From Haliclystus octoradiatus (Eukaryota; Cnidaria; Staurozoa; Stauromedusae; Haliclystidae): 64,000 bases of DNA. Every line of letters starts with the position of its first letter. Within the stretch, counting starts at the first letter, position 1. The position numbers and the translations under genes are program-made. This document shows, piece after piece, positions 29,556-52,000 of the stretch. The stretch covers positions 2,654,146-2,718,145 of the forward strand of contig OU744447.1 in the NCBI GenBank assembly GCA_916610825.1, written 5' to 3'. Under the pieces are notes generated by a model. That model was given only the letters and a program-made list of their open reading frames with translations. It made no database searches and was not told the DNA's origin.

Positions 29556-29739
29556 TTGTGTGATAAAACTTTCTGATTACTATATAGCAAAAATAATTGA
29601 GCAGTTGTGTTTGACTCTGGAAACATGTGAAATTTAAGTATTTGAATTTAAAATTGAGTCTACAACATAGACAGACTTTTTAAACAAACTCTGTCTTGTC
29701 TCCCTTGGCTGTTGCTGGCCAGTACTTGACTATGTTATG

Positions 29740-29930: not shown

Positions 29931-30229
29931 AAGTAGCAACCCTATATCGTATTAATGTCTTAGTATATTTTCAATGGTATCTAATGAATGACGATTAACA
30001 CGATCGCAGAAAACCGTCCGTTTATTTTATAACATGTGATCATGATGAAGATGATATCTGTGTACTGTTATCCCCTGAGCACTCATCAAAATATCCTTTA
30101 TGGAAGCGGATAATAATTTCAATAGTTTTGCCATAGACAAAAACATCCTTAACATGAATTATTTGTGCACCATAATTAATTATCTTCGCCATCAAGTAGA
30201 TTTAAATGAATTCTGTAATGGTTTTCAGG

Positions 30230-30300
30230 CCCTGCCTTTTAGTCTTATTTCATGTCTACCAATTAATGTTTCTGAATAAATGATGATGATAATGATGATT
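30230..30300 (+). mobile_element. LINE 3' tail fragment
   Basis: TTCTGAATAAATGATGATG… followed by imperfect TGA repeats, identical in design to the tail at 7481-7514. A very short 5'-truncated LINE copy inside the Helitron. Confidence 0.6.
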
Positions 30301-30964
30301 CGAACTCGATGATTTTCAGACCATTGATACTCGATACAACCATTGGATTTGGAATCGAGGCCATTTGATTTGCGCTCGAGGCTGTTCTACGGCTGCGCTG
30401 CTGAACCGCATGTTTTGATCTTCGCGATCGTGTTAAATCGTATTATGAATGGTAGTATAAATGAAATTTTTGCTTTATTGAATCCAAGCAATCTGGCTCA
30501 AAGATGGATAGTAATTTGGAGATCTCAAATCATCATGGTGCATCAAAGCAGTAATGTGCTTTATCGAACATTATTTGGGTATTTTCAATTGGATAATTCC
30601 AAGTATTGATTGCTTTCAGTTGCAAGTAATCTGTTCAAGGTAAGACTTCGTGCTGCCCTTCGTTGTCTGGTTTTTATTGTGACAACTTCATAGGATCCGA
30701 ATACAGTAGCAAGTCTTGGAGTGTTATTACTTCAAAATTATTTGCAATATATTGAAAACATTTTTGTGATGATATGTGTCAATAGCATTTGAAGAATAGA
30801 TCGCGAGAAATCCATAACGATATATTAAATTTTAACAGGTTTCATCATTTTAACAACATTTTATATTAAATAATAAATTTTAACAGTTTTCATTATAATA
30901 AATCTTAAATTTTAACAGCTTTCATTATATATATTATCGTAACACAAATCATTTTGAATACTTT

Positions 30965-31200
30965 AGGCATAGAAAAAGGCGATGAAAAACTATTCTATTT
31001 TTCAATATTGGCAGACTTCAAATTCAAAAGCTCAGTAGACAACCAAGATGATGGTCTCAAACGAACCATTTGGACAACTAAAAGGCTGTTGCCGTGACCA
31101 TCATTGACATCAGCAAACTGGATCCAGTCGAGGAAATTCACCACTTTTGCCACCTTCGTCTGTATGGTGCTCGCGATCTGGTCAAAGTTAACAAACATAG
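30965..31200 (+). pseudogene. Decayed inverted relative of the Helitron passenger ORF
   Basis: On the plus strand, fragments ILADFKFKSSV, NEPFGQLK and AVTIIDISKLDP can be read in three frames. They match ILAAFKFDSSV, SEPFGQLK and AVAIIDIKIQQLDP of the minus-strand ORF at 31520-32089. Frameshifts make it non-coding. It stands in inverted orientation 300-900 bp from its intact relative. Confidence 0.7.
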
Positions 31201-31519
31201 AAAATTATTGTACTTATCATGTGTCAATACAGTGGTTTTTATCTGATGTTGTTTTACTAATGTTGGGATGACCGATTGGTGTGGAGCCTAGTAACTCAAA
31301 TTATGATTGATCACATCAGAGATAGAAAAGATGATGGAAATGCAACACAAATAATGACAACTTTGAAGATTGTGCATAGAAATTAAGGATGCAACACCAA
31401 GAAATACCCCCTCTGATAATGTGAGTATTGTCTGTTTTCGAGTTGATTAATCTACTTGTATATTTCCAAATGAATAGGCCTATATATAGTCTAGAAAAGA
31501 GTTACATATACATATACAT

Positions 31520-32089
31520 CTACCTTCCTCGACTCCCATGGTTGTTGTTGTTATCTCCATGGGTGTTTGGTGGCAATAGATCATGTAGTTTGTTTGTAAT
31601 TTTGTCTCTTAAGTATTTCTGTATGTCTTCGTAAGTTCGTTGAACTGCTCTGTCCAGTGTCTGTCGGCGTTGGTTATTTGTTAAATGTACAGTCAGCCCG
31701 TTAAATTTCGTCACGTTCGTGTCAATTGCTTTTTGTATGTCGGACAGTAGCAGTTGCGTCACGTCACTGTTAAACTGTTTTATTTTTTCTGTAATTAGAC
31801 CCTCTGTGGTAAGGCTGTGCGAGTCCGGTAGTGTCAAGTCTGTTCGTTTTATTGCCATTGGAGGATCCAGCTGCTGAATCTTGATGTCAATGATTGCGAC
31901 GGCAATCTCCCAAACAGCAGTTTTTAATTGTCCAAATGGTTCGCTTGGAACCATCACTTCGGTTGAGTTTTCTAATACAACTGAGCTGTCAAATTTGAAA
32001 GCTGCCAATATCGCTATTATTATTGTTTCCATCACCTTTTTGCTATCCCGTATGCATTCGACTAAGTTGATATCGCATGCTGAATTCAT
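31520..32089 (-). CDS. Helitron passenger ORF, unknown function
   Basis: ATG at 32089 (minus); 189 codons ending in a hydrophilic Asn-rich, basic tail (GDNNNNHGSRGR). I do not recognise a domain. The N-terminal third is hydrophobic-mixed (METIIIAILAAFKFDSSVV), and the C-terminal half looks helical and charged (KIKQFNSDVTQLLLSDIQKA, then RAVQRTYEDIQKYLRDKI). The sequence immediately before the ATG is a good acceptor (CCCCTTTTCAAATTGCAG), so this may be the last exon of a longer captured gene. An inverted, broken relative at 30965-31200 shows the sequence belonged to a small family and that this copy stayed open while the other decayed. It lies 3' of RepHel on the same strand. Confidence 0.5.
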   Translation of the reverse strand: MNSACDINLVECIRDSKKVMETIIIAILAAFKFDSSVVLENSTEVMVPSEPFGQLKTAVWEIAVAIIDIKIQQLDPPMAIKRTDLTLPDSHSLTTEGLITEKIKQFNSDVTQLLLSDIQKAIDTNVTKFNGLTVHLTNNQRRQTLDRAVQRTYEDIQKYLRDKITNKLHDLLPPNTHGDNNNNHGSRGR

Positions 32090-32139
32090 CTGCAATTTGA
32101 AAAGGGGAATTTTTGTTTCAATAATAGCCTATCAATAAA

Positions 32140-33200
32140 TTGCAGCACATAAAAGTCTTTAATTGAGTGAGACTAATTCCATGTCTATAAATTCAAATGA
32201 AAGATAAATGGTTGACTGTCAATATTCAAATTGAAATACTATTAGTAAAGCGTTGCCTTGGTTTTTATTGTCCATCAATTTTATATACACATGTTTAAAT
32301 ACATTATCAACATTTCAATAAAGATGATACAGAATACGAGATGTTATATCCATTCAGTGCTATCAACTTACTTTGTTTGATAAATTCAATTTACTTCTGA
32401 CAATAAATTTGTTGTTTGTTTTTTTTCAGTTGGAAAATTGTGAATTTGAAAAGTGAAGGTATCTTCTATGTATGACTTTGTTTAGTTCATGAAACACTGG
32501 TTCATATTTGCCGCTCATTTCACTGGTTAACTGAGCTGTCAATCATTATAAAATTCATATTAACGTTTCCATATTTGCTGCATCTTGATTACAAGAACTG
32601 GATCTTGTGCTATATTAAATAGTAATGTAAATATATTTATTTCATTTATCTTTAAAGTGAGAAAAACTATAGTCTACACTTGTTATATGACAGCGCTTTC
32701 GAATATTTTTGTTTGCCACTGTGTTGTTCAGTGTGCATATCAATATCATTAGAAGAGTTTTGTTAAGGTTTCACATATAAATCAGAAAATTATCATTCTT
32801 CTCCTGAATTTTCTCTTGATCTGATAGTCTAGTCTTGAATTATCTGATATGGCAGTGGAAATTCTTGTCTAGGAATCAGGATACAATTTATTCGAAGTTT
32901 CAATTCCAGATATATAGTTTTGTAATGATCATTGAAAGATGATAGACATTTTTTAGCCCAAAACATAAATCTTGAAACAGTTTCAGCTCAAATTCAGAGT
33001 TAAATGAACAGTGAACATAAAACTTGATATGAATATACTTTTTCTGCTTCCCCAAATCTTTCAATGGCTATTTTTAATATAGAAATTTCATATTGCTGAG
33101 TGTGATGTGAGTTGTTGAATGAGTGTATGAAATTGAAATCAAATTAACATTAAATACCCACTCACTCGACTTTCAAGAAACAAATACTGAATTGTGAACT
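32140..33200. other. Helitron interior without recognised features
   Basis: AT-rich; no ORF with support, no clear repeat. Confidence 0.6.
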
Positions 33201-33202
33201 TA

Positions 33203-33540
33203 TATGCCAGACATTATAGTTTGAATGTTTTTGTAGTACAAAACAGAAAACTGATAATACCACAAATTACAGGTCAAATTGATTTATGAAAACTGAATCG
33301 TATTCATCAGAATGTGTTTTATAGCTTTTAATAGAAAAAAATATATTCTATTTGAAATGCCTGAAAGTTAATACGCCAGACGTTATATTTTGAATGTTTT
33401 TGTAGTACGAAATAGAAAACTGATAATACCACAAATTACAGGTCAAATTGATTTATGAAAACTGAATCGTATTCATCAGAATGTGTTTTATAGCTTTTAA
33501 AAGAAAAAAATATATTCTATTTGAAATGCCTGAAAGTTAC
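33203..33540. repeat. Direct duplication, ~169-bp units
   Basis: Unit 1 is 33203-33371 and unit 2 is 33372-33540, more than 90% identical by eye (both contain 'gataataccacaaattacagg' and 'gaatcgtattcatcagaatg'). No coding signal. Confidence 0.85.
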
Positions 33541-34861
33541 TGAAAATTGAGATCTTATTTTTGATTTCGGCTGTCTATAATAAAGTGTGCGAATCAGATC
33601 CGGTTGTACTTCGGATCAGATTGGGATTGATTTTCAGCTTTCCGGTCGGTTTAACCTATTTCTGTTGGAGTAAATCGGATGTCGAGAAACTGTTTATATT
33701 GTTTTGCGGTTTTCACTGCTTTGTTCTGGTGACGAATGAATCGAATTAGATAACAATCCATTCAAGCTGGATAATTGAAGAACAATGATCTAGCAGAACA
33801 AATGTACTTTGTTATCCTTACACCCTTGGATAAAATTGTACAGAAACTTAAGTAATTGATTAATTGCTCTGCCTCAAATCAGAATCATGTTTTGCCTTTG
33901 TCCAGTGGATGTTAAGATTCTGAAATCTGATCAGAATTACATATCAATCCAATCCCCTGTCTAGAAATTGCATCCAATCAGTGTATCACCATGAACATAA
34001 TTGTATTTCAGCAAACGGAGATAATAATGCAGTGACTATTGCAAACAACTATCAAAATACTATCGGCCACTATATACTTCTGTTTGAGGTGAAACTCAGA
34101 GATGAAACAGTTGATATTTTGTAATATTATATTCAACAGTTCAATCAGTTTTCATCTACATAAAACAATAGCACATAATGCGGATGCTGTGTTGGCAAAT
34201 TCAAGTAAGAAAATATTTGAATATGAGCCTCCACACCAACGGCAAGGTCCAGCATTCCGACTTCGTGGAGGACATGCAGATTCCCCTTTATACTATGTAG
34301 ACGTTATCAATTTACAATATGGAAGGGATATCTGCATGCAGATCATTCCATGGAGTAGTTTGCTATACGTTACAGTGAAATAATGGTATCAAATTGATAT
34401 AGTTTGGAATTACAAAACATTGTAAAAGCAAGACTTACTCCAATGGAATATCCTTAATGAAACAATTGATTGAAATAAGTTTAGAATACAAAGTTAAAAA
34501 CATTAAAGTAAGACACAAGACAATGCATTACGTCATAATATATATTAAACTAAAATACTATGTCATCCACAGTTTCCATCCATGACGTGCATGACATTGA
34601 CAACGATATTTTCATTGAGGGTTGACAAGATAATGTTTTCTTGGATGAGATCTGAATCATAAATATCAATCTAAATACAATTCGATGTAAACATTTCTGT
34701 ATAAAAAAGCTCCAAACTTATTGGGATCTGAAAAAATTATGATGATGATATAGGAATCAAAGATGAGAAAAACCATGATAATATAAAAGTGATGAAAATT
34801 AATAATAATTGAGGCTTGAATTGGAAATGAACATATAAATTCCATAATAAACAGGTACAGT

Positions 34862-35120
34862 TGATGAAAACTGTAGAATATTGTTAAAGAAATAATAATA
34901 ACAACGTAGGTTGAATTGAATTTGTATATTTCTTATAAACAATAATATTAATTCCAAGTTGACATGTATCAAGTTTAGTACATCAAGTTCTCATAGTTCT
35001 AATTTACTGTATTTATAGTGTTAAGATAAATGCTAGAAGGTGCTAGATCATACATGGTCACGAGGGTCATGTGAGTCATGAGGTTCTCCTTGTTCTAGAT
35101 GTTTCAGGAAGGTTCCTACA
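34862..35120 (-). repeat. 3' LTR of the TRIM-like element
   Basis: 259 bp, similar to 35741-35997 and to the solo LTR at 40027-40314. It contains the heat-shock-element-like array near its 5' end (35083-35115, minus strand). Confidence 0.85.
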
Positions 35121-35740
35121 TAACCCCCCCCCCCCGCCAGATGGCGGAGCCATAAATAACAATGCAATGCATGATAGACTAAAAATGATAAAGATTTAAT
35201 GCTATAATATGTGCTAAATTGTAAGTAATAAATGTTTGTAAATATAAAAGTAAGTAATAAATGTATGTTAATACAAATGTAAGTAATTATGGTATAGTAT
35301 AAGCTTTTTATGATGGCAAGGTTTTAGAGAAATGTTCAAAGATTAACGGCATAACAGTTAGTTAAAAAGTTGATTACAATATTGATGTATACCAATTTGT
35401 TAAATTGCTTTGAATTTTCCAGAAAAGAAATTTTCATAAAAGTGTCGTATTTGGTGTAATTTCAGTTTCTTCTATGAGCTTGATAATCTTTAATGTTTCA
35501 TAATTTATACCTATATTTTTTGTTTGTAAATTTGATGAATGCAGTATTTTCTTGGGTTGTTGCTAATTCTTAAGAGTGAAAGTCATTCTAGTTTTGTTGT
35601 TTTTATGTCTTCGCGGTCATGAATAAAATGTTATGTTCAATTCCATTCTGTAATAAAATACTTTCAGCTTTTAAATTATGTCGTAAAGTCTTGAAGATTA
35701 TCCATTAAAAGTAGATGTTCTTGTAATTCGACGGACCAAT

Positions 35741-35997
35741 TGATGAGAACTGTAGAATTATGTTGAAGAAATAATATTTATAACAACGTAGGTTGAATTG
35801 ATTTGAATATTTCTTATAAATAATAATATTAGTTCCAAGTTGACATGTTGATAGTAGACTGTACATTAAGTTCTCATAGTTCTCATTAACTGTATTTATA
35901 GTATTTAGATAAATGCTAGATCATGCATGGTCACGTGGGGAGTCATGAGGTTCTCCTTGTTCTAGAATGTTCTAGATGTTTCAGGAAGGTTCTTACA
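35741..35997 (-). repeat. 5' LTR of the TRIM-like element
   Basis: 257 bp. Minus-strand order: HSE-like array (35950-35993), then a TATA-like stretch (around 35888-35895), then the 3' end …TTCTCATCA. The first dinucleotide is TG with the following G changed to A relative to the other LTRs. Confidence 0.85.
35950..35993 (-). promoter_or_regulatory. Heat-shock-element array in LTR U3
   Basis: On the minus strand, GAA and TTC triplets alternate with strict 5-bp spacing: GAAcc TTCct GAAac (ATC)ta GAAca TTCta GAAca. This is the HSF-binding consensus (alternating nGAAn units) with at least six good units. Confidence 0.75.
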
Positions 35998-36165
35998 CAG
36001 TATACATACTCTATACACAGTCTTGATCACAGTTAATATTTCAAATGAGATATGAAAACCATGAATTCTGTATACTTGATAGATTTACAAAAATTGATCA
36101 GTTAAAAATGTTTTTCAAATAAGTTTGATATAAAAAAGTTTGCAATAAAATTCTAATACTGTGTA

Positions 36166-36345
36166 CAGTCAAAGCTGTTATAAAGGTTACCTATATACAC
36201 TGATACAGGGACCACATGTTTCTAGTGGTTACATTTGGTATGTTTTGTATTCTGTATTGAAACAGCCCTGTATATAAATGCCACCTGTCTACAGTGGTCA
36301 ATTTTCAAATGTCAGTGGTTCAAATATTAAAAATTGATTGGGGGA
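36166..36345. repeat. Short repeat related to 37757-37880
   Basis: Both contain 'ctgttata…ggt', 'tatatacagtgg', 'ttggtatgt' and 'ctacagtggtca'-type blocks in the same order. They resemble degenerate copies of a small DNA element with repeated internal motifs; no TIRs resolved. Confidence 0.45.
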
Positions 36346-36377
36346 TATTTCATCTATTCGGTGTCACCTATCTACCG

Positions 36378-37607
36378 TTAGCATATAACCTCTTGGTACA
36401 CCACATTCAGCACATTTGGTAGAGATGGAGATACAACTTTGATCCCAGCACTGCTTGTTGCTCTGGACAGTGCCACATAAAGTTGGCCATGACTGAAAAC
36501 CTGTCTTGGGAGATAAATACCAACAAAATCAAGTGATTGTCCCTGAGCCTTATTGATCGTCATTGCATATGCAAGTCGCAAAGGGAATTGAATTCTACGT
36601 AACGAGAAAGGAAAATTATCATCATTTGAGATCACAGTGATACGAGGAATAAGGACAATCTTTCCCTTATTAGCACTGCCGATAACTACAGCCTTAATGA
36701 TATTAATTCTTAGTTCTTGTACGGCAAGGCGTGTCCCATTACAAAGGCCATTTTTAGGATCTAAATTTCTAAGTAAAATAACAACGGCACCCACTTTCAA
36801 CGTTAGTTTATGCAATGGCATTCCAGAAGGTGTTATTGAATTGAGATATTCAACTGGGTAGTCAGCAGCCTCGTTTTCATCATCACACTCAATTGAATCA
36901 ATGCTATGATAAATACGCTGCTCGGTAATAAGTCGGTCAAGCACCATAGAGTTAATAACATGGGTCTGTGCATTTGTAGGAGTCAGACAACATCTCTTGC
37001 TTATGAAATCAATGTTGGTCAAATCACCCCCATCAAAAACATGAATAATCAGTTCATCCAAAGCATTATCACCTTTGATGCACATCTCGTCTGGCAAAGT
37101 TATGAAAGAAGGTGATGAGGCGTCAGAAGGAGCCCTTCCTTCACCGACATCTACCAACCATTGGGAAAATGATTGATCAGCGTCATTATTCACTCTCATA
37201 TTGATAGTCAGTCGTTTTTTAATAAAGTGTTGCCAGAGATGAGATGACTGTACACATGCTTGTACTATCTGGGATCTACATCCACGAACTACAACAGGTA
37301 ATACTTGACGGAAATCACCTCCTAGAAGCATCACTTTTCCAGCAAAAGGTTTACTAACCTGGTTTCGGCTGGGCATCAAATCTTTAAACAGACGGTCAAC
37401 AATGTCCAACGCATTAGCTGGAATCATTGAGCATTCATCCCAAATAATGACATCTGCATCTCGCAATTCATCAGCTTGCTTGCTGTTCGCTTTCATGGAG
37501 CTAGCTGAGGTTGATGTGCATTTGAATGGCAATTTGAATTTGGCGTGGGCAGTACTGCCGTTTATAAGCAATGTACTTGCAATCCCAGTGTAGGCTACAG
37601 AAATAAC
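36378..37607 (-). CDS. Helitron RepHel exon 4: Pif1-like helicase core
   Basis: Starts after the acceptor TTTTTCTAG (37608-37609) in phase 0 with [14 protein letters not shown] and ends at a stop at 36378-36380; 409 codons. It carries helicase motifs II (VIIWDECSM, residues ~65), III ([11 protein letters not shown], ~95), IV (LTINMR) and a C-terminal block with [20 protein letters not shown] (motif V) and YVALSRATS (motif VI). These define the SF1B Pif1-family helicase that unwinds DNA during rolling-circle transposition. The C-terminus (…[12 protein letters not shown]) is where family members normally end. No stop or frameshift seen, so the helicase could be functional. Confidence 0.93.
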
Positions 37608-37940
37608 CTAGAAAAAAATCAAGTTAGGATTAGGCTATGGCTCTAATCAGATATAAAAATAATAGAGGCAGGCCTTTCAATGACTGTGATCATCAAGATC
37701 ATCCACAGGAAACAATCAATTAACAAACTAAACATTACTTCAAACAACACAATACAGCCATTCCTGTTATAGCAGTCATTTATATACAGTGGCCACTCTT
37801 GGTATGTCTGAAATATACCTTTTTTTTCACTGAATTAACCCTGTGTATTAAGGTCAGCTGCCTGTAATGATCAATTTGTCTACCCCTCATAGCTTGCTGT
37901 TATATGCATGCTTCAATATAACACAAAATAAGGGAAGTAC
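37608..37940 (-). other. RepHel intron 3
   Basis: 333 bp, GTACTT…TTCTAG on the minus strand, phase 0. It splits the helicase just after Walker A. It contains a repeat segment related to 36166-36345. Confidence 0.85.
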
Positions 37941-39971
37941 CTTTTTGCCCATTTCTATTAATGTCAAAGTGATTGCCTTGTAGAGAAATGTTTTGCCTGT
38001 GCCGCCTGCACCATCTATAAAGAAACAGTTGCCATTGGAATTGTCTTCAGTTGCCTCTATCACTTCATTGTAGATCTCCATCTGTTCTGGGTTGAGTTGA
38101 TTAATAGTTTCATCAGCAGCTGTTGTAGCTCCATTTTGCATATCCAAAGCAAAGTCCAGCTCCAGTTCTTGGTACTGTTGTACTCCAATAAATGGCAGGC
38201 CAAATTCTGCTGTTGTCTTATTATGATTTTTGAGATGGCATTCAATTTCATTCAAAGCCATCTGATAGCATTGTTCACGAACATTGGAATTTTCATCAGT
38301 GGCATGTATGTCATCACTGCCTGATTGAGTAGATCCAGCATAGTTGATTGATCTGTTGCCCTCTGAACACGGCTGCTCAGTACTACATATCAATGCAGCA
38401 TTATTTGATTCATTGTCGCCAGACTCAACAGTCTGCGTACGACAGGTGCTGTCAGACACAGTCTGCACACAGCTATCTTCTGAACACGGCTGCTCAGTAC
38501 TACATATCAATGTAGCATTATTTGATTCATTGTCGCCAGACTCAACAGTCTGCGTACGACAGTTGCTGTCAGACACAGTCTGCACACAGCTATCTTCTGA
38601 ACACGGCTGCTCAGTACTACATATCAATGTAGCATTATTTGATTCATTGTCGCCAGACTCAACAGTCTGCATACGGCAGTTGCTGTCAGACACGGTCTGC
38701 ACACAGCCATCTTCTGAGCACGGCTGCTCAGTACTGCTCATTGGTTCGTTGGTCGTGAGCGCACGTTCTACACTCATTTGAGACACTCTGTGGATGAAAT
38801 CAAGGCACATGAAGTCTTTAAATTCATTCCACAATTCAATTGGTGAAATTGGTTGACACAAGGCAAGAATGAGACTGAAAAAATGTCTCACAGAACGTGG
38901 TGTGCCGATTTCCGTTCCCTCTTGGAGGCATTCTCTATAGATTTTATCATCATGCACAAGTTTTAGTGCAACTGCGGCTTCCTTGAAAGTATCATAATAT
39001 TTACCATCTACAGTTTTCAAATCAACAAAATCCTTAGCACCTTTTACATGCAAAAGAATCAATCTTAGATAGAATTTTTCACCCTGACTTGGTAGTACAT
39101 TGTACATTCGACCAATTACTTGAGGGTTCGGTCTCAGAGGTGATCTTTTCGACCAATGTTTATTTTTGAAAATATAATGTTCTGGAATTTCATGATACAA
39201 ATATTGATGGGCATCATTATCTACCTTATTCAAATCAAACCATGCCTGAAGAGTTGTTCTACTTTCTCTAGCAATGGCCATGGCTTCATCACCTTCTCGA
39301 TAGTAACATGTTTCCATATTAGGCAAATGAACTTGAAGGCGAGTTACTGAATGGCTCCTATCTTGCATTTTGTATTCCCAAATTCGGGTCAGTGCTTCAT
39401 GAGGACCAACATAACGCGTAGATTCATAAGAAAGAATTTCATCATGGTCAACATAGCCTTCACGCACTTCTACAGTAGCACAGTCAAATCCTTTATAAAT
39501 ATATTTGAAAATGTAAGCAGTCACACGAATGGAGGTAGCAACCTCCACATTCATATGGCACCTATATTTTTGCAAAAGGTATGGATTGTAAGGCACTACG
39601 AATTCATCACTAACATGTGTTTTTGCCCTTGCAAGGTAAACATTACTAACCTGTCTACGTCGGTATTTGGGGTATCCGTTTTGATCTGCGATTGTCTCTG
39701 TGACACAACTTTTTGGGAAATTTTTAGTGCACTTACCTTCTGACATGCAGCAATTATCAGGATTTAATGACCCACATGGTCCGTGTATCATGCGATCACG
39801 TACAATTTTGAAAAGCATAGGATTTTCTGTAGGAGAAGGCACTTCAGCTGATACTATCCTGTCAATATCTTCCGGAGTTCGCGGCTTGTCCTCATCGGCA
39901 AGAAACAACAGCATGTGGCAATGAGGCAATCCCCTCTTTTGGAATTCTATTGTGTAAACATATGCGATTAC
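37941..39971 (-). CDS. Helitron RepHel exon 3: Rep HUH/Y2 region and helicase Walker A
   Basis: Read from 39971, after acceptor TTCTCCAG, for 677 codons in phase 0. It opens with VIAYVYTIEFQKRGLPHCHM: the HUH metal-binding motif appears as HCH (residues 17-19). Around residue 150 is VTAYIFKYIYKGFD, the two-tyrosine (Y2) motif that attacks DNA at the Helitron ends. Around 38344-38780 a linker contains three-plus tandem 42-residue units (STEQPCSED…ESNNATLIC). The exon ends with FFIDGAGGTGKTFLYKA, the Walker A of the helicase, then GKK at the donor. The catalytic motifs look intact. Confidence 0.93.
38344..38740 (-). repeat. 126-bp coding tandem repeat in RepHel linker
   Basis: Three near-identical 126-bp units plus a partial one, encoding a Ser/Cys/Glu-rich 42-residue repeat between the Rep and helicase halves. 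The antisense strand is also open through it, which explains a spurious plus-strand ORF. Confidence 0.9.
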
Positions 39972-40031
39972 CTGGAGAAATGTAAGGAAAATAAATTATT
40001 ATTGTTTGAAACATATAATTGTACTATGTAG

Positions 40032-40074
40032 GAACCTTCCTGAACCATCTAGAACATTCTAGAACATAGTAGAA
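40032..40074 (+). promoter_or_regulatory. Heat-shock-element array (nine 5-bp steps)
   Basis: Triplets at 5-bp steps from 40032: GAA, TTC, GAA, ATC, GAA, TTC, GAA, TAG, GAA. Seven of nine units fit the alternating GAA/TTC rule for HSF trimers. It lies about 72 bp upstream of TATAAATA. This density is far above chance for a 43-bp stretch. Confidence 0.8.
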
Positions 40075-40145
40075 CCTACATGACTCCCCGAATGACTCAC
40101 AATGACCATTCATGATCTAGCAGCTTCTAGCATTTATCTAAACAT

Positions 40146-40153
40146 TATAAATA
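40146..40153 (+). promoter_or_regulatory. TATA box of solo LTR
   Basis: TATAAATA about 120 bp into the LTR, downstream of the HSE array; the equivalent stretch is present in the other LTRs. Confidence 0.55.
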
Positions 40154-40517
40154 CAGTAAATCAGAACTATGAGAACTATGAGAACTTAATGTACAGTCTA
40201 CTGTCAACATGTCAACTTGAAATTAATATTATTATTCATAAGAAGAAATATACAAATCAATTCAACCTATGTTGTTTTTATTATTTCTTCATCATAATTC
40301 TACAGTTCTCATCAACTATACAGCAGCAAAATATAGTACAGTATCTTCTAATTAAAGATCAGCTTAATCTAATATTGCATGAAGAAAAAACTATCATAAG
40401 TGATCCTGATTTTGTAGGTGTTTGGATACCGATAACGGGGATGTGCAAGGAACGGTAAATGTAATCATGAAAACTCACATTCAATGTTGCTAACTCACAT
40501 TCAAAGAATTCACTAAC

Positions 40518-41393
40518 CTTTCCAAGAACATGTTTCTTTGTGATTTCATCAAGTATTGACTGTAACTTCAAGAAAAATACTTTGACAACCAAGTCTGGAC
40601 GGTCATCTGCAGTCTGTCCGGGTTGAAGATTACGTTTCACTTCTTCCCATTGTGAATTGGCTGTTATTGTAACAAATAGATCTGGTCTCCCAAATTTTCT
40701 TACTATTGACATTGCATCCTGATAAGCCTGGTGCATGTATCGTGGTGAGCCAATATGAGATGAGGGAAGAATAACTACACGGCCTACTCGAGCATTGGAT
40801 TCATCAGCACGTTGCCGTAAATGATCCATCAGACCAGTATAGCTTTCTGCCCTAAGCTTGACCTGTTCGTTTGCAATGAAGTTCAATTCATTCCCTTCAA
40901 TTTTGCAGTAAGCATCTACAAGAAATTGCTGGAAAAGACGCTTAGCAGAATGAATAATAGAAAATTCCTCTCTAATAGATATCAAATAAGAATACCATTG
41001 CCTCATAGATAATCTATTTCTCACGGCAGTGGCATACTCTGGCTCATGCCTCAAACCTTCTTGCCATCCTAGCTCTCCCTTCAAGAATAGCAATGGATAT
41101 GTAAGAGGGTCACAATGCGGATTTAGTACATTTATGTTTTTAAGTATGCCACCATTTCTATCGACTATAGTTAAAATCCTCGTTTGTGGTGGCGGGGGTG
41201 CTCCGTCATCTCCAGTAAATACGGCAGCAATTTCACTTACCAATGGGTCGTTGCAACGCCTTCGATCTTCCCCTATTCTATGGCTGATTACCATGCGTAC
41301 TGGTAAAGGCGTCCTACCCTCATCCCTTGCTTTATCTTCTTCTTTTTGTATCACTTCCTTCATGTGATGGAATTGATTAACAAAAGGATTTAC
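40518..41393 (-). CDS. Helitron RepHel exon 2: Helitron_like_N domain
   Basis: Read from 41393 after acceptor TTTTTCAG, 292 codons, phase 0 at both ends. It begins VNPFVNQFHHMKEV and contains NPHCDPLTYPLLFLKGE, MRQWYSYLISIRE, then SPRYMHQAYQDAMSIVRKFG and PDLFVTITANSQWEE. These are the conserved signatures of the Helitron_like_N region that precedes the HUH motif and belongs to the Rep nuclease half. It ends KKHVLGK at the donor GTTAGTG (40511-40517). The following exon continues smoothly with VIAYVYTIEFQ, as in other Helitron proteins. No interruption seen. Confidence 0.92.
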
Positions 41394-41469
41394 CTGAAAA
41401 ATATATTTATGAAATATGAGCTTCTGAAAAGGTAGAAACTTCTTAACTATCTTACTACATTTTACTGAC
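41394..41469 (-). other. RepHel intron 1
   Basis: 76 bp, GTCAGT…TTTCAG on the minus strand, phase 0. Confidence 0.85.
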
Positions 41470-43200
41470 CTGTTCTAAATGATTCTGCAGCATTTCCATT
41501 ACATGGGTTGTGCAGCCCCCATTTTCTGGAAGGGACAGTCTTTCATTCAAAGCCTGAGTACTATCTAAAATATACAACTGACAATACTTTGCTTTATGTC
41601 CTTCTTCTGGAAGGATACTACTGATTGCATGATAGGTTTGACCATGAACAACTATCACATTTGAACCATGCCCTTGATGACGAACTAAATTGGCATTCCA
41701 CGAGGCCATTGCCAAGGCATTATTGTAATTCCTGATGTGCTTTTGAAAATTTTTGGCATGTTCATCTGTTCTATCTGTATACAATTTTTTTATGTCATCA
41801 GGTGGTGGGTCAACTTTGTCAAATTTAACTTTGCCATTATGACAACATTTACGAATAGTGTCGCTTTTGAAATGGAGAGCATTACAATATTTACATTTGT
41901 CATCCATCGCTCCTAAATCATGAGACTCTACGTCTTCAATGTTAGCAATGTTTGAAGATAGACCCGAGCCTCGTGAAGGTATGTGAGAAATCATCCTGTT
42001 CAGTGCTTGTCGCTCTCTACGATTCACTCTTGCAGTTTCACGTCTGGCTAAAATGGACTGCTGTGATTCATTACCTCTGCGTACCCTATGTGTTAGATTG
42101 TCATTGCGAAGCCTAACCGCTCTTTCTGCACAACTCTGAGATGCCCGATGAGAGGCAGTACACTGCTGAGCAGTTTCAAGCCTGTTTACTCTTTCTTCTT
42201 CAGCTTCCTCCTCATGATTGATTTGTTGGGCACGCCTTAATTGTTGTAATCTTGCATCTCGATCTTCAGGTGTCTCATCTTCTAATAGAAGCTGTTGGTA
42301 TTCCCTGAAGTAACGGTTTCTTCGTTCTCTCTCTTCTGAGGTTTCATTAGTAGTTCTAATTTGCCAAGACTCCCTATAAGACTGAAGCCTCTGCTGATAT
42401 GCTTCAGGAGTTTCATTGGAGATCCTCACCTGTTGATTATCTCTTGCACTCTCTAACCTACGTTCGTATTCAGCAGTGGTCTCATTAGCAGTTCTAATTT
42501 GCCAAGAATCCCTATAAGACTGAAGCCTCTGCTGATATGCGTCAGGAGTTTCATTGGAGATCCTCACCTGTTGATTATTCCTCGCACTCTCTAGCCTACG
42601 TTCGTATTCAGCAGTGGTCTCATTAGCAGTTCTAATTTGCCAAGACTCCCTATAAGACTGAAGCCTCTGCTGATATGCTTCAGGAGTTTCATTGGAGATC
42701 CTCACCTGTTGATTATTTCTCGCACTCTCTAGCCTCCGTTCGTATTCAGCAGTGGTCTCATTAGCAGTTCTAATTTGCCGAGACTCCCTATAAGACTTAA
42801 GCCTCTGCTGATAAGCTTCAGGAGTTTCATTGGCGATCCTCACCTCTTGATTATTTCTCGCACTCTCTAGTCTCCGTTCGTATTCAGCAGTGGTCTCATT
42901 TGCAATCCTGATTTGGCTTGATTCCTTACCAAAATGAAGCCTTTGTTGCCTCTCTAATGGAGTTTCGCTAGCGCGTTTTCTCTGCTTGGCTGTCATATCT
43001 TTCTTACGCCTAGACGAAGCCTCAATACCACTTTCATCAGCCCTGCGTTGTTTTTTCCTAGTCCGATTAACTTCTCTTTGTAGAGATGCTATGTCATCGG
43101 AGCTATCAGAATTACTGGCCCCAGATTCAAGTAGTTGTGCAATTCTAGAATAGAAGCAAAATATAAATTGTTCCATTATTATTTTCAATGTATTTTTCAT
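41470..43200 (-). CDS. Helitron RepHel exon 1: N-terminal repeats and zinc-finger-like region
   Basis: ATG at 43200; 577 codons to the donor at 41469 (…EMLQNHLEQ). After an acidic/basic start it has about a dozen 23-residue repeats of the form NETxxxYxxRLxSxRxxxQxR (residues ~85-300), predicted helical and charged. Further on is DDKCKYCNALHFKSDTIRKC followed by CHNGKV, the C-x2-C…CC-x-GKV zinc-finger-like motif typical of Helitron transposase N-termini. An internal acceptor (TTCTATTCTAG, 43145-43146) suggests the real exon may begin at 43144 with an upstream exon, so the start is uncertain. No stop or frameshift. Confidence 0.88.
42300..42960 (-). repeat. 138-bp coding tandem repeat in RepHel N-terminus
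   Basis: About five near-identical 138-bp units, each coding two 23-residue subrepeats (ANETTAEYERRLESAR… and SNETPEAYQQRLQSYR…). High identity between units implies recent expansion or gene conversion. Related NETPExRxxRL repeats are common in Helitron proteins. Confidence 0.9.
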
Positions 43201-45148
43201 TTATGTTGATATTTGTATGTCAAATATTGCCAAAAAAATATTTTTACACAACAATTAATGAAGAGATTTTAAAATGTTTTTGAAAAATATTTATACTTCA
43301 TTATGTCGTTGGGATTTCACTGTAAATTGTAAATCATGTGATAAAGATTCGTCAATCATGACATGCAGACTGTTATCTGCTTCTGTAATATGATATCAAT
43401 ACCTCTGCGTGTTTTTATTGCTGAAAAATTACCATAAATATAAGCATATTAAAGTTAAATTCTACATTTTTGTATATTCATAAATTTGAAGCAGGTCCAC
43501 ACCAGCCTAGTGCTGCCAGGATCTTGACCTGCTCATTCAAACAAATAAAAAATACATACTGTATTAGTGCGAGATTAAGTCAACCTTTTTCCTCCAAAAA
43601 TTCAAAATATTGTTATAAAAATATTGCCGCCAAATTGATGTAGGCCTACAATGCACAGTTATGTATGAGAGATTGTATGAGTATTGAGCTTTTTTGTTTT
43701 GTCATATTCATTTTGGCAATACGTTTTGTGCAGATATTTCCCAAATTTCTAAATTTTTCACATTAAAAATTTAAATTAACTTTTATAATCAAAATAATTT
43801 ACCAGATCCTATGTTAACTTTATTATGCATATTTGTAAATTTATGTATATATTAAATACATTTCTCATTATAAACTTGTTAATATAGTCGTGCTATTAGC
43901 AAATACAGCAATTAAATACGCAAATACGGCAAATATTCTTCAAACGTGAAACAGCTACAGAATGATTCTTAAAACCAAGAAAACAGATTATTAACATTAT
44001 TAATGTATTGTTTGTTTTTTTTTTTGGGGGGGGGGTGTTCAAATCTAAAAAATTAACAATTAGTTCCTCATATTAATGTATTGTTTTTGCGGAACATCCA
44101 AAATCCAACAAATGAAGAATGAGTTTCCTCAGTATATGGAAAATATTGAAAACATGTATATATCGCCTATTGGGACACAACAGATTTGGATAGAGATTTT
44201 GCTTCTATTACAGATTTCCTTGTTGTGTTTTGCATAGCGTGACTTTATTCCGTGTATATTGACTTTGAACATTTTGAGATTCTCGAGGAACAATATTATT
44301 TACCACAAGAGAGTTTGACATTCTACGTTTTAATTGCTAACACAGAAAACAAAGTCAGAATCACTCTACTTTTTTGTCATTAAAAATTTAACTGTCCATC
44401 CCGATCCTGTTAGCTACTTTTCTCATAGTATAACATATTCAAAAACAATCATCAATTAATTTTAAACAAATCGATGTTACCTTTAATGCATTATTTACAT
44501 AAAATATTCGAAGTACCGACAAAAGAGAAATCAATGGGAGGGGGAACGGTAAAATCAATGTTGCCCTTCACCCAGAGGGAATCATTTAGTATTTGTGAGG
44601 TCAATTTTGAAACGCCAAACGGGTTCCCTGGAAACACCAATCAGGGGAAGCCACTGCCACATGCATTGAAAGTATCAGCGGATTCCCTGGTGGAGTAAAC
44701 AACTGGGGAACCCTTTGGCTCTAAGAAGGATCAATTGCGTTTTGCTAAGAAATTGATGTCCTGGGGGGAATTAGTGACTTTGTCCTCTTTTGCAATTTTT
44801 CATTTTTACACCTGGGAGGGTTTAAGACAATGTAATTTTCTCTAATGAATTTTCTCAAATTTTTATTAACAGACCACACGCTTAACATTTCTACATTATT
44901 GGGTTTTTGTTGTTATAAAATCATTACTTAATATTAAAAAAATAATTTTATAATAATAATATCTCTATATTAATCTACTAAAAAACATTTTCATCTTTAT
45001 TTTATCAACTGCTGCGTCATAATTTGGGTTCAGCAAGCTTTTCCGCACATTATTTACATAAAATTTTAGGAAGCAAATGAAAAATATGTCTGACCCCAGG
45101 GTGAAGGTGGAAATAAAAAATTATTGCTGTTCCTCACCCAGCAGTATG
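43201..45148. other. Helitron region upstream of RepHel
   Basis: AT-rich, presumably promoter and possible 5' exon of RepHel; I cannot place a start site. It contains a T-run/G-run tract at about 44018-44038. Short ORFs such as 44474-44698 look accidental. Confidence 0.5.
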
Positions 45149-45265
45149 GTGGCCCATCGTTGCCATAGCGAGTTTTTTTGAAATTTTTTTACACCATGGC
45201 CCATTGTTGCCATAGCGTTTTTATTTGTGAAAAATTTTTAAACCAGGGCCCATGGTTGCCATAGT
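45149..45265. repeat. ~48-bp tandem repeat, three units
   Basis: Three copies of 'ggcccat(c/t/g)gttgccatag' at 45151, 45198 and 45247, separated by T-rich spacers. Confidence 0.8.
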
Positions 45266-45957
45266 AAAAAAAAATTACCATGGCGCAATTACCATTCAAG
45301 TTATTGAACCCTGAGGCCTGAGCCAGATGAAGTACTTGTTTAATAGGAGGCTATTGTGATTAATATTAAACATGTTAAATGGTTCTGAAAGTTTACATTA
45401 TGAACAAATGTTTGTTTTTGAAGTGCAGTTTGATTTTGAGAGCAAAACAAAATTAAAAAGTTACATTACCGACCGCGGAGATCAAACCTGTATCAATCGT
45501 ATTCGTGAACAGAAAGTCAGCTTAGTTTACAAAATATCTTACCCTACTCTTTGGCCTTGCTGTCTTTTTTTTGGTGGCATGTTATTAATAGGAAGTTAGA
45601 CAATAAATTGACTTATTCCAAAGTAGCAATATGTCTTTTTAATTGCATTAATGCTAATCAAAGTAATTTTGCTACCTGATTGATTTTGCAAAATCAAACA
45701 GTTGTGAAAAGCTTTCTCTTAGCCATGGTTACATTTTTCGCGGGAAAATGACGATGCCTCATTTTCATGCATGGCTTTTCATTTTCATGGCTTTTTTTAG
45801 TCCGTCTTGTATTGGTACGCCTGAACAGTTCATCCACAATTATGAACATTGTTTTATTACATTTCTTTTTACTAATTTAATGGTAATCGACTGTTGACAA
45901 TGTTGATCGTGCTGATTGGAGTTAGATGTTAATATATTTGTCCTTTTCATGTGAAAC

Positions 45958-46187
45958 CAGGGGTGGCACCACGATTTCCCCGACGAGGGGGCTATGCCAA
46001 ATTTCTATGTTACATGGAAACAATTTGGCAGTAGTCTCTAATACTGGAATAGAGCTAGATCCTATTGTTTTTTACGAAATATCTTTAAAAAGTTACCAAA
46101 CAGAGAATTTGGACTTTCCCGACAGGGGGGCTGAGCATCCCCGACGGGAGGCTGTAGCCCCCCTGCCCCCCTCTGGTGCCACGCCTG
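45958..46187. mobile_element. 230-bp hAT-type MITE
   Basis: Ends CAGGGGTGGCACCA and TGGTGCCACGCCTG form near-perfect terminal inverted repeats, flanked by an 8-bp duplication TGTGAAAC (45950-45957 and 46188-46195). CAGGGGTGG ends with an 8-bp duplication are hallmarks of hAT elements. No coding capacity. Confidence 0.9.
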
Positions 46188-46389
46188 TGTGAAACGAAAA
46201 CAGCGAAGCAGTAAGTTGTGTTTTTGAAATATTTCCCCCGATCTTTCCTTGCTATCCTAGCTCTGTACTCTGTTTTTTAATTTTAAAATTCTCTGTAAAC
46301 GCTTTACGGATCTGTGAATCGAACTTTGAATTTTCTCGAATGCTGTCGTGATAAAATATTTTCTTGCAAGTTCTTGTATTTTCATGCCC

Positions 46390-49068
46390 TGCGCTAGACT
46401 CTTGATTTCAATTTTCAACACCTCGTTCAACAACCATGTTTCTTTGAATCCAAAACAGACTGTTTTATCAATGTTCTCGCAAATTATATATCATAGTAAC
46501 CCTTTTAGAAGAAGTGCAATGTTTGTAAGGAACGGCATTTTGTTTCATTAATAAATTAAGGACCTAAAGTCCGATACAATCCGATCCCAAGACCTAAAAT
46601 ATTAACCCGAATCTGACCCGATACGATCGGATCGCTGCTTTACTGCTTCATATTAAAAAAATAAGATCAATCGATAAAAGTTTCCCAAATGGCGGATTTG
46701 AACATACGACCCTGATATTGCGATACCAGAGCATTAACCAATAAGCCACTACCCTACTTACTGTGATGGGCGCTTCGACTGTACTAATCAACAAATCTAC
46801 TGCTTCGACAATGTATTATTGAACAAGGCCGACCCACGCGCGTGTATTGAATTTCAAATTATATAAACAATCTGAAAATATTATGATATGATAGTATATA
46901 AGCCTATAAATTTTTGATCTTTGCAATCTCAGCAAGTAGGCCTGTGATTTTCATGGCAGTCTATCAAAATACTAAGAGTTCCTTGAAAATAAAATTTTAT
47001 AAGTAAAAAAAAGATGTGAAAAGTTGGCCTCATAGTGCTTCTTGTTATCAAATTTTCCAGAATAATAGCTTTCCAGAATAATAATCAACATTCTTTTAAA
47101 TTGAAATTAAATTCTATGAGAAATCGCTATACTAATTCGATATTGATATTATGTTACATCTTGTTGTCAATATTTCTACGCGCTATTTATAATACATTAC
47201 AGATGTCGAATGGAAGAAAAGACGATTATGAATAAATTAGTTCTTTTGATAGAAAAACGAAAACACTGAACTCATTTTGCCAGATTCGTGATATGCATAT
47301 TTATTCAGAATTTATTGAAACGGACGCGATGGTTTATAGAGTGGAAATGTTTAGTGCAGCTTTAAAGATATATAAATACTGTACTATAGCCGATGGTAAT
47401 ACTTAAATGTTCATGTTATGATTTATGATGAAAAGGATTTACTTATATAGAAAATTAATCTACTTTACCTTGCATTTGATCGCGACATGAAATGATCATT
47501 TTTGTCAGAATTATTTCGAATAAAAAACAATTGATATTTTATTCTTATCGGGCTTACATTCTCCTTCGATAAAATATGGTTGTTAACTTATTATTGATTG
47601 GTGTATTAACTCAGAGAACCCGCTATTATGTATTTAAATGTTGTTCGGAGATTATGCCGCTCGTATAGTTTTTATTTGGATCTCATTTGGAAAATGGTAA
47701 GTTGTATTTTAATAAATATTGTTTGCTATGATCGATTATTTCATGCAACCTTTTCGCTTTTTATTTTTGTAACACAAGGTTTGTTACACTCATCCAAACT
47801 GTATTAACTATTTAAAAATGTTTTTGAATTATGTTTTTGTGCTTTTAAATTCAAAGCAAAATTTTTGAACGCTGAAAATATTATAATTATTATTATTTAT
47901 CACAAATCATACGCTCAATTCAATTTAACTTTGTTAAATTTGATATACCTGAAATTAAGTTTATTAAATGTTGATCAAAGATAATAACAAGACATCGCTA
48001 TTTTTATTCTCGAAACTGTAGTAACATACTGTGTCTTATTCGTATAGCAAGTCAACAAAATGAAATTTTAATTTTAATCGATGCCTATAATTCCTTCGTT
48101 AATTATTGAAGCAAAATCTGAAAATAAAAGCCTGGCTGCTCATAACCAAATGATTCATATTTTTATATTCACTAATAAATTATAGAAATACTTTTGTGCA
48201 ATGCCTTGATTAGTTCTAAACTCTATAATTTTATACTGTAGACAGATAATCTATTCGAACTTTGAATATTTTTCGAATTGATCGAACGCCAACGTCATTT
48301 TGAAAATTCTTGCAAGTTAATTTGTTTTTATGCCCCACGATAGATTATTCATTTCAAAACAGATTGTTTGCTCAGTGTTCTCACAAATTATATATCAAAA
48401 TAGCCTTTTTAAAAGTGAAATGTTTTGTATCTCGATTTTGTGAAAAGTAATGAACGGCATTTTGTTTCATTTATAAATTAAAGACCTAAAGTCTCTTTAA
48501 TTTTCATAGCGTTTGTGCAGCGCTATATGTATTGCTGATATCAACACTACATGAAATAAGTCTACGTTTCTTTGATTTCAAAACATATTTTGTTTGGCCT
48601 ATTTATACTGGTAATTCAATGTAATTCAGTATTTCGTATTGTTTTAATTATCATAAAACTGATTCATTTTCAAGTTTCACTTGCTCAAACAATTTACACG
48701 CAGCTTTTAAATTCAAAGCAAAATATTTTTGTTCTGGGGATTTCAATTTGAATTCGATTTGGCTGCCCGCTAGATTATCGACCTATGAAATTTTTCAAAA
48801 TCTCTGAATTTTTTAATGCAAGGATATCAAATAAATTATCAGATGAAGTATATTATTTTAAAACAACGTCATAGACCCATACTTTTCATACAACAAATTT
48901 GTTACTGTACACGGTTATCTCGACACAAATGTTTGCATAATTTCCCGACAACGGATTATCCGTATTATATCGCCAGTAAGACGTACATAAGTCGCGGACA
49001 GACACAGAAATATCGAAATATAGAAATATAGAAATATTGTGATATATAAACAGACAGTATTATTAATA
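46390..49068 (-). repeat. Helitron-associated unit 1 (5' block of the autonomous Helitron)
   Basis: First of three tandem copies. From about 46390 it resembles 48340-48490, and from 46560 it follows the unit consensus (tRNA-like module 46691-46757) to the 49068 junction. Unlike units 2 and 3 it lacks its own CTAG/hairpin on the left, consistent with being the 5' part of the long autonomous element. Confidence 0.75.
46691..46757 (-). repeat. tRNA-like module, unit 1
   Basis: A-box- and B-box-like segments as in the copy at 2131-2200; not a functional tRNA. Confidence 0.5.
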
Positions 49069-52000
49069 CTAGCAATGAGTGTAGTCCATAATGGACCTTC
49101 TATGATAAAACTTTCAGATCACTTATAATTAAACAATTGACTAAGCTTTCTATCGCTGTATAATACGGAGTATGAACTCTGGAGGAGAACATGAGACACA
49201 ATACGCATTGAAACGATGTAGCATTAATCAATACATCTTAATCATTCCTTTAATAAAAATTTAATTTATTTCACATCAATTGAGTCGATTGAAATGTATA
49301 ATTTAACGTAGCTTTGTCTACATAGAAAAACTTTATTTTATGTGTTGAAAGGAAGCCAGAACACATTAATTATTATAAATTACAAATACTCAGTCAAATT
49401 TCGAAATCTGAAACTATCCATAAAAAATCACTTCAAATCCGATCAGATCCGAAGACCTAAAATATTAACCCGAATCTGACCCGACACGATCGGATCGCGT
49501 TCGGTTCGAATTCATAAATCTTTATTGCAATATATACAACACTAATGTGGTGTTCACAAAATAACGCCGTCAAGGTGTGGCCGGTCAAACTCGTGGCATT
49601 GCATGCAATATATTCAGCATTAAATTAATTTAGCTTCGACAAAACACATGGTCCACTAATTTCTGTTATTAACATGATCAAGCGATATCTTTTGTTAATT
49701 AACAATGATTTACTGCTTCATATTAAAAAAAAAATCAGAAAAATCGTTGATAAAAACTGCCGAATGGCAGATTTGAACTTACGACCCTGATTTTGTAATA
49801 CCAGAGCATTAACCAATGAGCCAACCCCTTACATACTGTTGTACGCGCCTTGACTGTACTAATCAACAAACCTATTGCTTCGACAACGTATTACTGAACA
49901 AGGCGACAGCGCGTGTATTGATTTCAAACTATATATATAATCTGATAATATTATGATATGATAGTATATGAGCCTATATATTTTTGATCTTTGCAATCTC
50001 AGCAAGTAGGCCTGTGATTTTCATGGCAGTCTATCAAAATACTAAGAGTTCGTTGAAAATAAAATTTTAAAAGTAAACAAAAGATGTGAAATGTTGAACT
50101 CATAGTGCTTCTTGTTATCAAATTTTCCAGACTAATAGCATCAACATTCTTTTAAAAGGAAATAAAATTCTATAATAAATCGCTATACTAATTCGATATT
50201 GATATTATGTTACATCTTGTTGTCAATATTTCTACGTGCTATTTATAATACATTACAGATGTCGAATGAAAGGAAAGACGATTATGAATAAATTAATTAT
50301 TTTGATAGAAAAACGAAAACAACTCATTTTGCCAGATTCGTGATATGCATATTTATTCAGAATTTATTGAAACGGACGCGATGGTTTATAGAGTGGAAAT
50401 GTTTAGTGCAGCTTCAAAGATATAAAATACCATAGCCGATGGTAATATTTAAATGCTCATGTTATGATGTCTGACGAAAAGGATAATTTACTATGTAGAA
50501 AATGAATCTACTTTACCATGCATTTGATTACGATATGAAATGATCATTTTTGTCAGAATTATTTCGAATAAAAGACAATCTTTATTTTATTCTTATCGGG
50601 CGTACATTCTCCTTCGATAAAATATGGTTGTTAACTTACTATTGATTGGTGTATTAACTCAGAGAACCCGCTATTATGTATTTAAATGTTGTTCGGAGAT
50701 TATGCCGCTCGTATAGTTTTTATTTGGATCTCATTTGGAAAATGGTAAGTTTTATTTTAATAAATATTGTTTGCTATGATCGATTATTTCGTGCAACCTT
50801 TTCACTTTTTATTTTTGTAACACAAGGTTTGTTACACTCATCCAAACTGTATTAACTATTTAAAAATGTTTTTGAATTATGTTTTTGTGCTTTTAAATTC
50901 AAAGCAAAATTTTTGAACGCTGAAAATATTATAATTATTATTATTTATCACAAATCATACGCTCAATTCAATTTAACTTTGTTAAATTTGATATACCTGA
51001 AATTAACTTTATTAAATGTTGATCAAAGATAATAACAAGACATCGCTATTTTTATTCTCGAAACTGTAGTAACATACTGTGTCTTATTCGTATAGCAAGT
51101 CAACAAAATGAAATTTTAATATTAATCGATGCCAGTATAATTCCTTCGTTAATTATGGAAGCAAAATCTGAAAATAAAAGCCTTGCTGCTTAAAACCAAA
51201 TGATTCGTTTTTTTATATTAAATAATAAATTATAAAAATACTTTTGTGCAATGCCTTGATTAATTCTAAACTCTATGATTTTAGACTGTAGACAGATAAT
51301 CTCTTCGAACTTTGAATATTTTTCGAAATAGTCGAACGCCAACGCCAATTTGAAAATTCTTGCAAATTAATTTGTTTTTAAGCCCCGCGATAGATTATTC
51401 ATTTCAAAACAGATTGTTTGCTCAGTGTTCTCACAAATTATGTATCAAAATAGCCTTTTTAAAAGTGAAATGTTTTATATCTCGATTTTGAGAAAAGTAA
51501 TGAACGGCATTTTGTTTCATTAATAAATTAAATTAAGACCTCAAGTCTCTTTAATTTCATAGCGTTTGTGCCGCGCTATATGTATTGCTGATATCAACAC
51601 TACATGAAATATGTCTACGTTTCTTTGATTTCAAAACATATTTTGTCTGGCCTAGTTATACTGGTAATTCAATGTAATTCAGTATTTCGTATTGCTTTAA
51701 TTATCATAAAACTGATTCAGTTTCAAGTTTCACTTGTTCAAACAATTTACACGCAGCTTTTAAATTTAAAGCAAAATATTTTTGTTCTGGAGATTTCAAT
51801 TTGAAGTCGATTTGGCTGCCCGCTAGATTATCGACCTATGAAATTTTTCAAAATCTCTGAATTTTTTAATGCAATGATATCAAATAAAATATCAGATGAA
51901 GTATATTATTTTAAAACAACGCCATAGACCCATACTTTTCATACAACAAATTTGTTACTGTACACGGTTATCTCGACACAAATGTTTGCATAATTTCCCG

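Follow-up and report, generated by a model that had tools for sequence, protein, structure and literature searches.

A candidate heat-responsive LTR family with a phased heat-shock-element array, carried in part by a Helitron, in the stalked jellyfish Haliclystus octoradiatus

A solo long terminal repeat (LTR) in the genome of the stalked jellyfish Haliclystus octoradiatus carries a strong, phased array of heat-shock elements (HSEs) at promoter position, which is a predicted binding site for heat-shock factor (HSF). This LTR occupies positions 40027..40314 on the forward strand of the window, i.e., the whole 64,000-nucleotide stretch of DNA that was analyzed. It is 288 bp long, has TG...CA ends, and is flanked by a 4-bp target duplication (ACTA, 40023-40026 and 40315-40318). 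Triplets read at 5-bp steps from 40032 are GAA TTC GAA (ATC) GAA TTC GAA (TAG) GAA, such that seven of the nine steps in the array (40032..40074, forward strand) are perfect. These include two perfect three-unit sites in the same register, with one step between them. The TATA box TATAAATA (40146..40153, forward strand) lies 71 bp downstream of the array. Both features had been noticed in a sequence-only reading of this DNA, which placed the array about 72 bp upstream of the TATA box, and both hold up. Among 20,000 dinucleotide shuffles of the solo LTR, the best phased score was 4 in 72 cases, 5 in two, and 6-7 in none; with step sizes of 3, 4, 6, 7, and 8, the LTR itself scored 2. Outside positions 34801-40400, phased scores above 4 are absent on both strands of the window. 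The string GAANNTTCNNGAA occurs nine times in the window (1.0 expected), and five of these nine are found within the solo LTR and the two LTRs of a short element at 34862-35997. An ONSEN-like HSE consists of at least three adjacent nGAAn units in an LTR upstream of the transcription start, and such an arrangement is present here by sequence. The strongest class (4P; not required for this definition) has at least four strictly contiguous units, and the longest perfect run is at most three units in the sets of 33 and 19 LTRs described below. The solo LTR also contains a downstream 9-bp AGAACTATG repeat that has no HSE phasing.

We consider it reasonably probable that this LTR belongs to an HSF1-driven, ONSEN-like animal element that has spread by retrotransposition as well as by hitchhiking in a Helitron. 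The LTR would serve as the promoter of a young, mostly non-coding family of the Ty3/Gypsy type. Heat or other proteotoxic stress would free the host HSF1, trimers of which would bind the phased nGAAn array at its two perfect three-unit sites. The bound HSF1, about 71 bp upstream, would then activate transcription at the TATA box in the manner of the host HSP70 genes, and proteins of a coding relative would copy and insert the non-coding RNA. Separately, three LTRs have become passengers of a large Helitron and been copied with it to about eight places. HSF1 binding, heat induction, and mobilization in trans are what we infer from the sequence features described below.

The phasing was examined across the H. 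octoradiatus assembly (33 contigs, 261.86 Mb; given as 262 Mb and 33 scaffolds in the genome note, PMC9975415). A pattern with the spacing of the array (N7) has 439 matches in the whole genome and none for the reversed control. By comparison, a spacing one base shorter (N6) has two matches in the whole genome, and a spacing one base longer (N8) has 48; a different repeat, TTCATGAA, is present in 44 of these. Among the other four N8 matches, one (C1:8104412) shows the LTR-like string GAACCTTCCTGAAC twice. The excess of N7 over N6, together with the assignment of most N8 matches to another repeat, shows that the phase is specific in the LTR. Among 100 N7 matches listed, 59 are LTR-like strings and 41 are of the TTCATGAAC type, a split assigned by the matched string only. 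A second repeat family (L046, L058, L063/L065, and L070, of which L063 and L065 overlap) has many TTCATGAAC units, contributes to these 41 matches, and ends in CTTGTTTCGCAGG; its members are about 97-98% identical among four places, around position 1500. We therefore rejected the view that all phased GAA/TTC arrays are HSF sites: the palindromic TTCATGAAC unit yields the phase on its own, and a simpler guess for this second repeat is that it has the subterminal binding sites typical of a DNA transposon. In the genome of H. octoradiatus, phased GAA/TTC arrays by themselves are no proof of HSF sites.

A 25-base pattern taken from the other end of the LTR, with up to three mismatches allowed, has 422 matches in the genome and none for the reversed control. 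This number counts LTRs (two per full element) and includes the Helitron passengers. The proposed LTR family is genuine. In paired non-coding members, the LTR starts are 1.36-1.57 kb apart, and the one copy examined for coding capacity has a longest stop-free stretch of 80 codons in 1.2 kb. The family is young, apparently non-coding, and of the Ty3/Gypsy type, with TRIM-like elements of about 1.1-1.9 kb that share with TRIMs the short length and the lack of coding capacity. At 257-294 bp, however, the LTRs are on the long side for TRIMs.

Array scores were obtained for 33 LTRs chosen by the other-end pattern from among 100 matches listed. Since all 100 are exact to the pattern, this sample leans to young copies. 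The 33 also include at least three pairs that share one element or sit 4-5 kb apart on the same strand. Eleven of these LTRs score 7/9, nine score 6/9, six score 3-4, and seven score 1-2; in other words, 20 of the 33 reach 6-7 and 13 have scores of 4 or lower. In some of the low-scoring LTRs, the end with the array may have been truncated or rearranged. Three consecutive perfect units are present in 23 of the 33. In four LTRs of three non-coding elements (L072, L073, L074, and L077), GCA replaces the third GAA. Of the 40 genomic matches to the solo LTR that were scored, eight (window included) were at the 100% level and the other 32 at 95-96% identity. The two LTRs of individual elements are nearly identical: five non-coding pairs have mismatches of 0/284, 0/284, 1/284, 1/284, and 0/288. 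Across seven pairs compared from this type and the coding type described below, there were no mismatches in four, one in two, and two in one, with 0-12 gap columns. Both types have moved recently.

The other two LTRs in the window had been described as two LTRs at 34862 and 35741 that keep most of the array. They are the two ends of a single short non-coding element on the minus strand (34862..35997), which has an ACTG target duplication. The 5' LTR (35741..35997, minus strand) does keep most of the array, at 6/9 with the last GAA off phase by one base. This is not true for the 3' LTR (34862..35120, minus strand), which scores 4/9 and lacks one 10-bp unit (ATTCTAGAAC); a G-rich tract precedes it. 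The internal part (35121-35740, minus strand; 620 bp) has no long open reading frame, with a longest stop-free stretch of 67 codons. An alignment of the two LTRs shows differences at 21 of 242 sites, along with 32 gap columns.

A related coding family of about 5 kb has LTR pairs 4.79-4.89 kb apart, with nine such pairs among 42 matches examined. In one copy (L130), a 3001-base piece is open throughout its 999 codons, and protease, reverse transcriptase (RT), and integrase motifs are visible in it by eye. A decayed copy (L096) has Pfam matches to RVT_1 and Integrase_H2C2, with rve just below the cut-off, and its protease piece has no Pfam match. A further stretch (L097), with LTR ends 4.66 kb apart, has no frame of more than 96 codons. 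In Ty1/Copia elements, the integrase precedes the RT in pol. The coding element has the RT before the integrase, which is the order of Ty3/Gypsy rather than Ty1/Copia and rules out membership in ONSEN/COPIA78 itself. The TG...CA LTRs, the 4-bp ACTA/ACTG duplications, and the protease-RT-integrase order in the coding relative all fit Ty3/Gypsy, an assignment made by domain order and not by a tree.

The coding-family LTR shares 80-84% identity with the solo LTR and with two LTRs of the non-coding type. It has one perfect three-unit site, followed by TTC GAA one base out of phase, and this site ends 111 bp before the TATA box. Among 19 coding-type LTRs fetched, 15 have a perfect three-unit site, although one of these (L125) resembles a recombinant with the non-coding type; five of the 19 are identical, including both LTRs of one element. 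Mismatches in coding-type LTR pairs are 0/294 and 2/294. The non-coding elements probably use the proteins of this relative in trans. The single three-unit site in the coding family and the shared GCA variants indicate that a full 7/9 array is not required for spread. A bolder version of the favored reading, which we put forward only tentatively and regard as somewhat doubtful, is that the non-coding LTR element is a parasite with a stronger HSF switch (7/9) than the coding element on which it depends. It would claim a larger share of each heat-triggered burst, with the Helitron independently carrying the same switch as intron cargo. If so, two transposition systems that are unrelated to each other would pass on one heat-shock module and scatter HSF1 sites across the genome.

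For comparison with host promoters, three HSP70 genes with single full-length frames were found, two of them head to head. Their HSEs are TTC GAA ATC GAA, TTC GAA GTC GAA, and, in one gene of the head-to-head pair, TTC GAA ATC GTA. These HSEs end 77-78 bp before a TATA-like box, compared with 71 bp for the solo-LTR array; given that the three promoters are paralogous, the shared distance counts as one observation rather than three. An ATC, as in two of these HSEs, is also present at the fourth step of the solo-LTR array. At least three perfect units in the best five-step stretch were found in five of nine upstream stretches of HSP70-family and small heat-shock genes versus four of 74 window tiles. 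Four perfect units were found upstream of one small heat-shock gene and in none of the 74 tiles, and the summed score of the HSP70 HSEs (13 of 15) is matched by one of the 74. In the number of in-phase units, the LTR array exceeds all nine host upstream stretches. One LTR pair is about 29 kb from the HSP70 pair, a closeness that we treat as chance. As for other heat-shock genes, four small ones (C1:34334818-34336642, C1:38739106-38739660, C4:21281257-21281817, and C4:30416722-30417519) have two alpha-crystallin matches each, apparently in the same frame, and one pair of small heat-shock genes is arranged head to head. HSF DNA-binding domains are encoded at three genomic loci. The one on C7 reads by eye as a canonical HSF exon, and two further HSF-domain frames (L131 and L132) are present besides it. 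L131 resembles cnidarian proteins, some of which are named HSF5-like. The best named relatives of an HSF-like protein from this genome are cnidarian, with Hydra, Montipora, Rhopilema, and Nematostella among them.

Conservation of the array was evaluated with a selection test on a tree of LTR copies that were not chosen by the array, in which changes on internal and terminal branches were compared for the seven matched triplets. In two of three runs, internal-branch changes, taken relative to terminal ones, were scarcer in the triplets than in the remainder of the LTR: p = 0.0135 (70 rows), 0.13 (69 rows; L123 dropped and another alignment setting), and 0.015 (65 rows; L086, L098, L104, L107, and L123 dropped). 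In the array region, the rows left out of the 65-row run carry insertions, deletions, or changes, such that dropping them may favor the claim. Compared with the array's own spacers, the triplets gave p = 0.28, 0.77, and 0.11 over the three runs, none of which is significant. When the same mask was slid along the LTR, an equal or lower fraction was found at 46 of 187 and 16 of 187 positions, and without the first 15 bp the test gave p = 0.27 and 0.087. The first perfect three-unit site is common to two lineages whose LTRs are 16-20% apart, and this site starts at the LTR end. The array starts at the LTR terminus, a part that is also constrained by integration and the integrase. In addition, the families are young, so the retention of the array may reflect age only.

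These results bear on the possibility that a decamer repeat (NGAACMWTCT units) has drifted and grown by slippage at the LTR edge to give an array that only resembles an HSE, with expression driven by other factors or constitutively. Five imperfect 10-bp units can be recognized in the array, and the unit number differs between the two LTRs of the 34862-35997 element, and the same LTR has the AGAACTATG repeat outside HSE phase. The genome is also rich in GAA/TTC-phased TTCATGAAC repeats, and the p values given above are unstable across runs and not significant against the spacers. However, the units are mixed in sequence and yet keep the GAA/TTC phase, the distance to the TATA box resembles that of the host HSP70 promoters, and the coding lineage, although diverged, has the first three-unit site as well. 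On balance, we regard this explanation as unlikely. Alternatively, the sites may bind HSF1 in principle while silencing keeps nearly all copies off, so that the array would be a leftover from an earlier successful phase. Silencing is the usual state of genomic LTR elements, and the LTR element in the window is an older one, judging from its 21/242 LTR differences; however, the 0-2 LTR differences in coding-type and non-coding pairs imply recent transcription and transposition, making this explanation quite unlikely. Finally, HSF may use the array for germline or developmental expression rather than for heat, e.g., via host HSF5-like factors. Retroelements do gain from germline expression, and the host has two further HSF-domain frames, one resembling proteins named HSF5. 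However, nothing in these data links such factors to the array site, and it is uncertain which DNA sequences HSF5-like proteins recognize; we regard this explanation as improbable.

Comparisons with known systems follow the accessible parts of the papers cited. Adjacent nGAAn units grade the heat response of ONSEN (PMC5059998). ONSEN/COPIA78 and other heat-responsive COPIA elements of Brassicaceae resemble the family favored here as HSF1-driven in having clustered nGAAn motifs in the LTR, which are graded there as 3P/4P, and the strong site of ONSEN arose from a duplicated short proto-unit, just as a 10-bp unit varies in number here (PMC5059998, PMC3907296). In contrast, ONSEN is a copia-type plant element with heat induction measured via HSFA, whereas the present family is cnidarian, of the Ty3/Gypsy type, and predicted from its sequence to be heat-responsive (PMC5059998, PMC3907296). 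The proposal of an animal analogue of these plant elements is thus a fair comparison, although not one without precedent: a copia-type element of Drosophila was earlier described as heat-inducible and as having heat-shock consensus sequences (Strand and McDonald, 1985, cited in PMC3907296). This is likewise an animal LTR element with the consensus in its promoter; however, its transcription does not require heat, and it lacks the extra nGAAn copies on which strong HSF binding depends, in contrast to the seven in-phase units found here (PMC3907296). Among the cases cited, the strong and measured heat-driven LTR elements are from plants, and the animal one, Drosophila copia, is weaker. The literature searched covered heat-induced LTR elements in cnidarians and other animals, with subscription journals thinly represented, and within it no strong HSE array in an animal LTR was found.

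Elements of this kind are already known; the present one stands out by its host, its strong array, and its double carriage. DIRS-1 of Dictyostelium is a tyrosine-recombinase element. Its terminal repeats have a heat-shock promoter, as in the present LTRs, but they are inverted and belong to an amoeba, unlike this solo-LTR family (Zuker, 1984; Cappello, 1984; both in the references of PMC2685390). TCN3 and TCN12 of Cryptococcus are also LTR elements with putative HSEs, although these are fungal, have only one or two such sites, and had their mobility measured at 37 C (PMC12810828). The stalked jellyfish family, being young, present in hundreds of LTR copies, and equipped with a strong HSE, would add another animal system of this kind. 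It would make it possible to test directly, in a marine animal exposed to warming, whether stress triggers transposition.

All three LTRs in the window lie within one Helitron insertion (29526..55207, minus strand). Helitrons have a 5' TC and a 3' CTRR that follows a hairpin, and they insert between A and T without target duplication. The insertion has TC at 55207 and CTAG after a AGGTCCAT/ATGGACCT hairpin at 29526. An uninterrupted counterpart of its insertion site, without duplication, is present at about 15431 of the same window in an inverted copy of the flanks; this paralogous empty site has C where the insertion flank has T. For the Rep and helicase parts of a Helitron, matches to Helitron_like_N and PIF1 were both found by Pfam on the minus strand. 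The open frame at 40359..41363 contains Helitron_like_N (E 5.9e-50), the N-terminal part of the replicase. The middle part of the replicase/helicase is at 37887..39929, with a C-terminal end that opens the PIF1 domain, and the helicase part with PIF1 and Pif1_2B is at 36378..37571. An open frame with STPR repeats (41455..43200, minus strand; Pfam) adjoins the replicase frames on the same strand. The solo LTR sits, in opposite orientation, within an apparent intron of the replicase gene (GTTAGT...CTCCAG, 39972..40517, minus strand), such that 40359-40517, the last stretch of the Helitron_like_N frame, would be intron. A location inside a GT-AG intron would explain the continued spread of the Helitron.

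The solo LTR and the short LTR element are found together at eight places on five chromosomes, window included. These places are 99.2-100% identical over stretches of about 3.3 kb around each, except that only 2.6 kb around the solo LTR was aligned for one (L001). All eight also match 32000-34800 and, with gaps in five, 41500-45500. Near 20.78 Mb on C2 there is a ninth pair, which is more diverged (about 96-98%). In addition, most of 32000-34800 is matched by a region near 12.11 Mb on C2 that is absent among the scored LTR matches. The suggestion that the array has been dispersed inside a Helitron is borne out by these near-identical copies. The parallel drawn with Caenorhabditis stands in part: Helitrons spread HSEs in an animal genome in both cases, but in Caenorhabditis the HSEs are in the Helitrons themselves and HSF-1 binding is reported, whereas here they belong to nested LTR passengers and not to the Helitron's own sequence (PMC6927752). 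The route seen here, with an LTR inserted into a Helitron intron and then copied by the Helitron, is one by which regulatory sites can spread without further retrotransposition.

Several other structures were observed in and around this Helitron. Repeats of about 3 kb are arranged in tandem at its 5' side (46636-55137), with fragments at the window start (4-2787), and two of the repeats inside the Helitron, at 49069 and 52082, start with its own 3' terminus. In a Helitron copy on C8 (L138 and L139), the unit of about 3 kb is at the opposite side, as if the number of units varies. The window also contains a large inverted duplication (11220-19820 versus 24939-29524 plus 55208-64000), the pieces of which are 92-98% identical. 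Its left arm provides the uninterrupted Helitron site at about 15431. The right arm is interrupted twice, once by the Helitron and once between 57386 and 61910, the location of a non-LTR retroelement (59313-61717). This retroelement has a Pfam match to RVT_1 in 59313-60782, and its upstream frame is endonuclease-like by eye.
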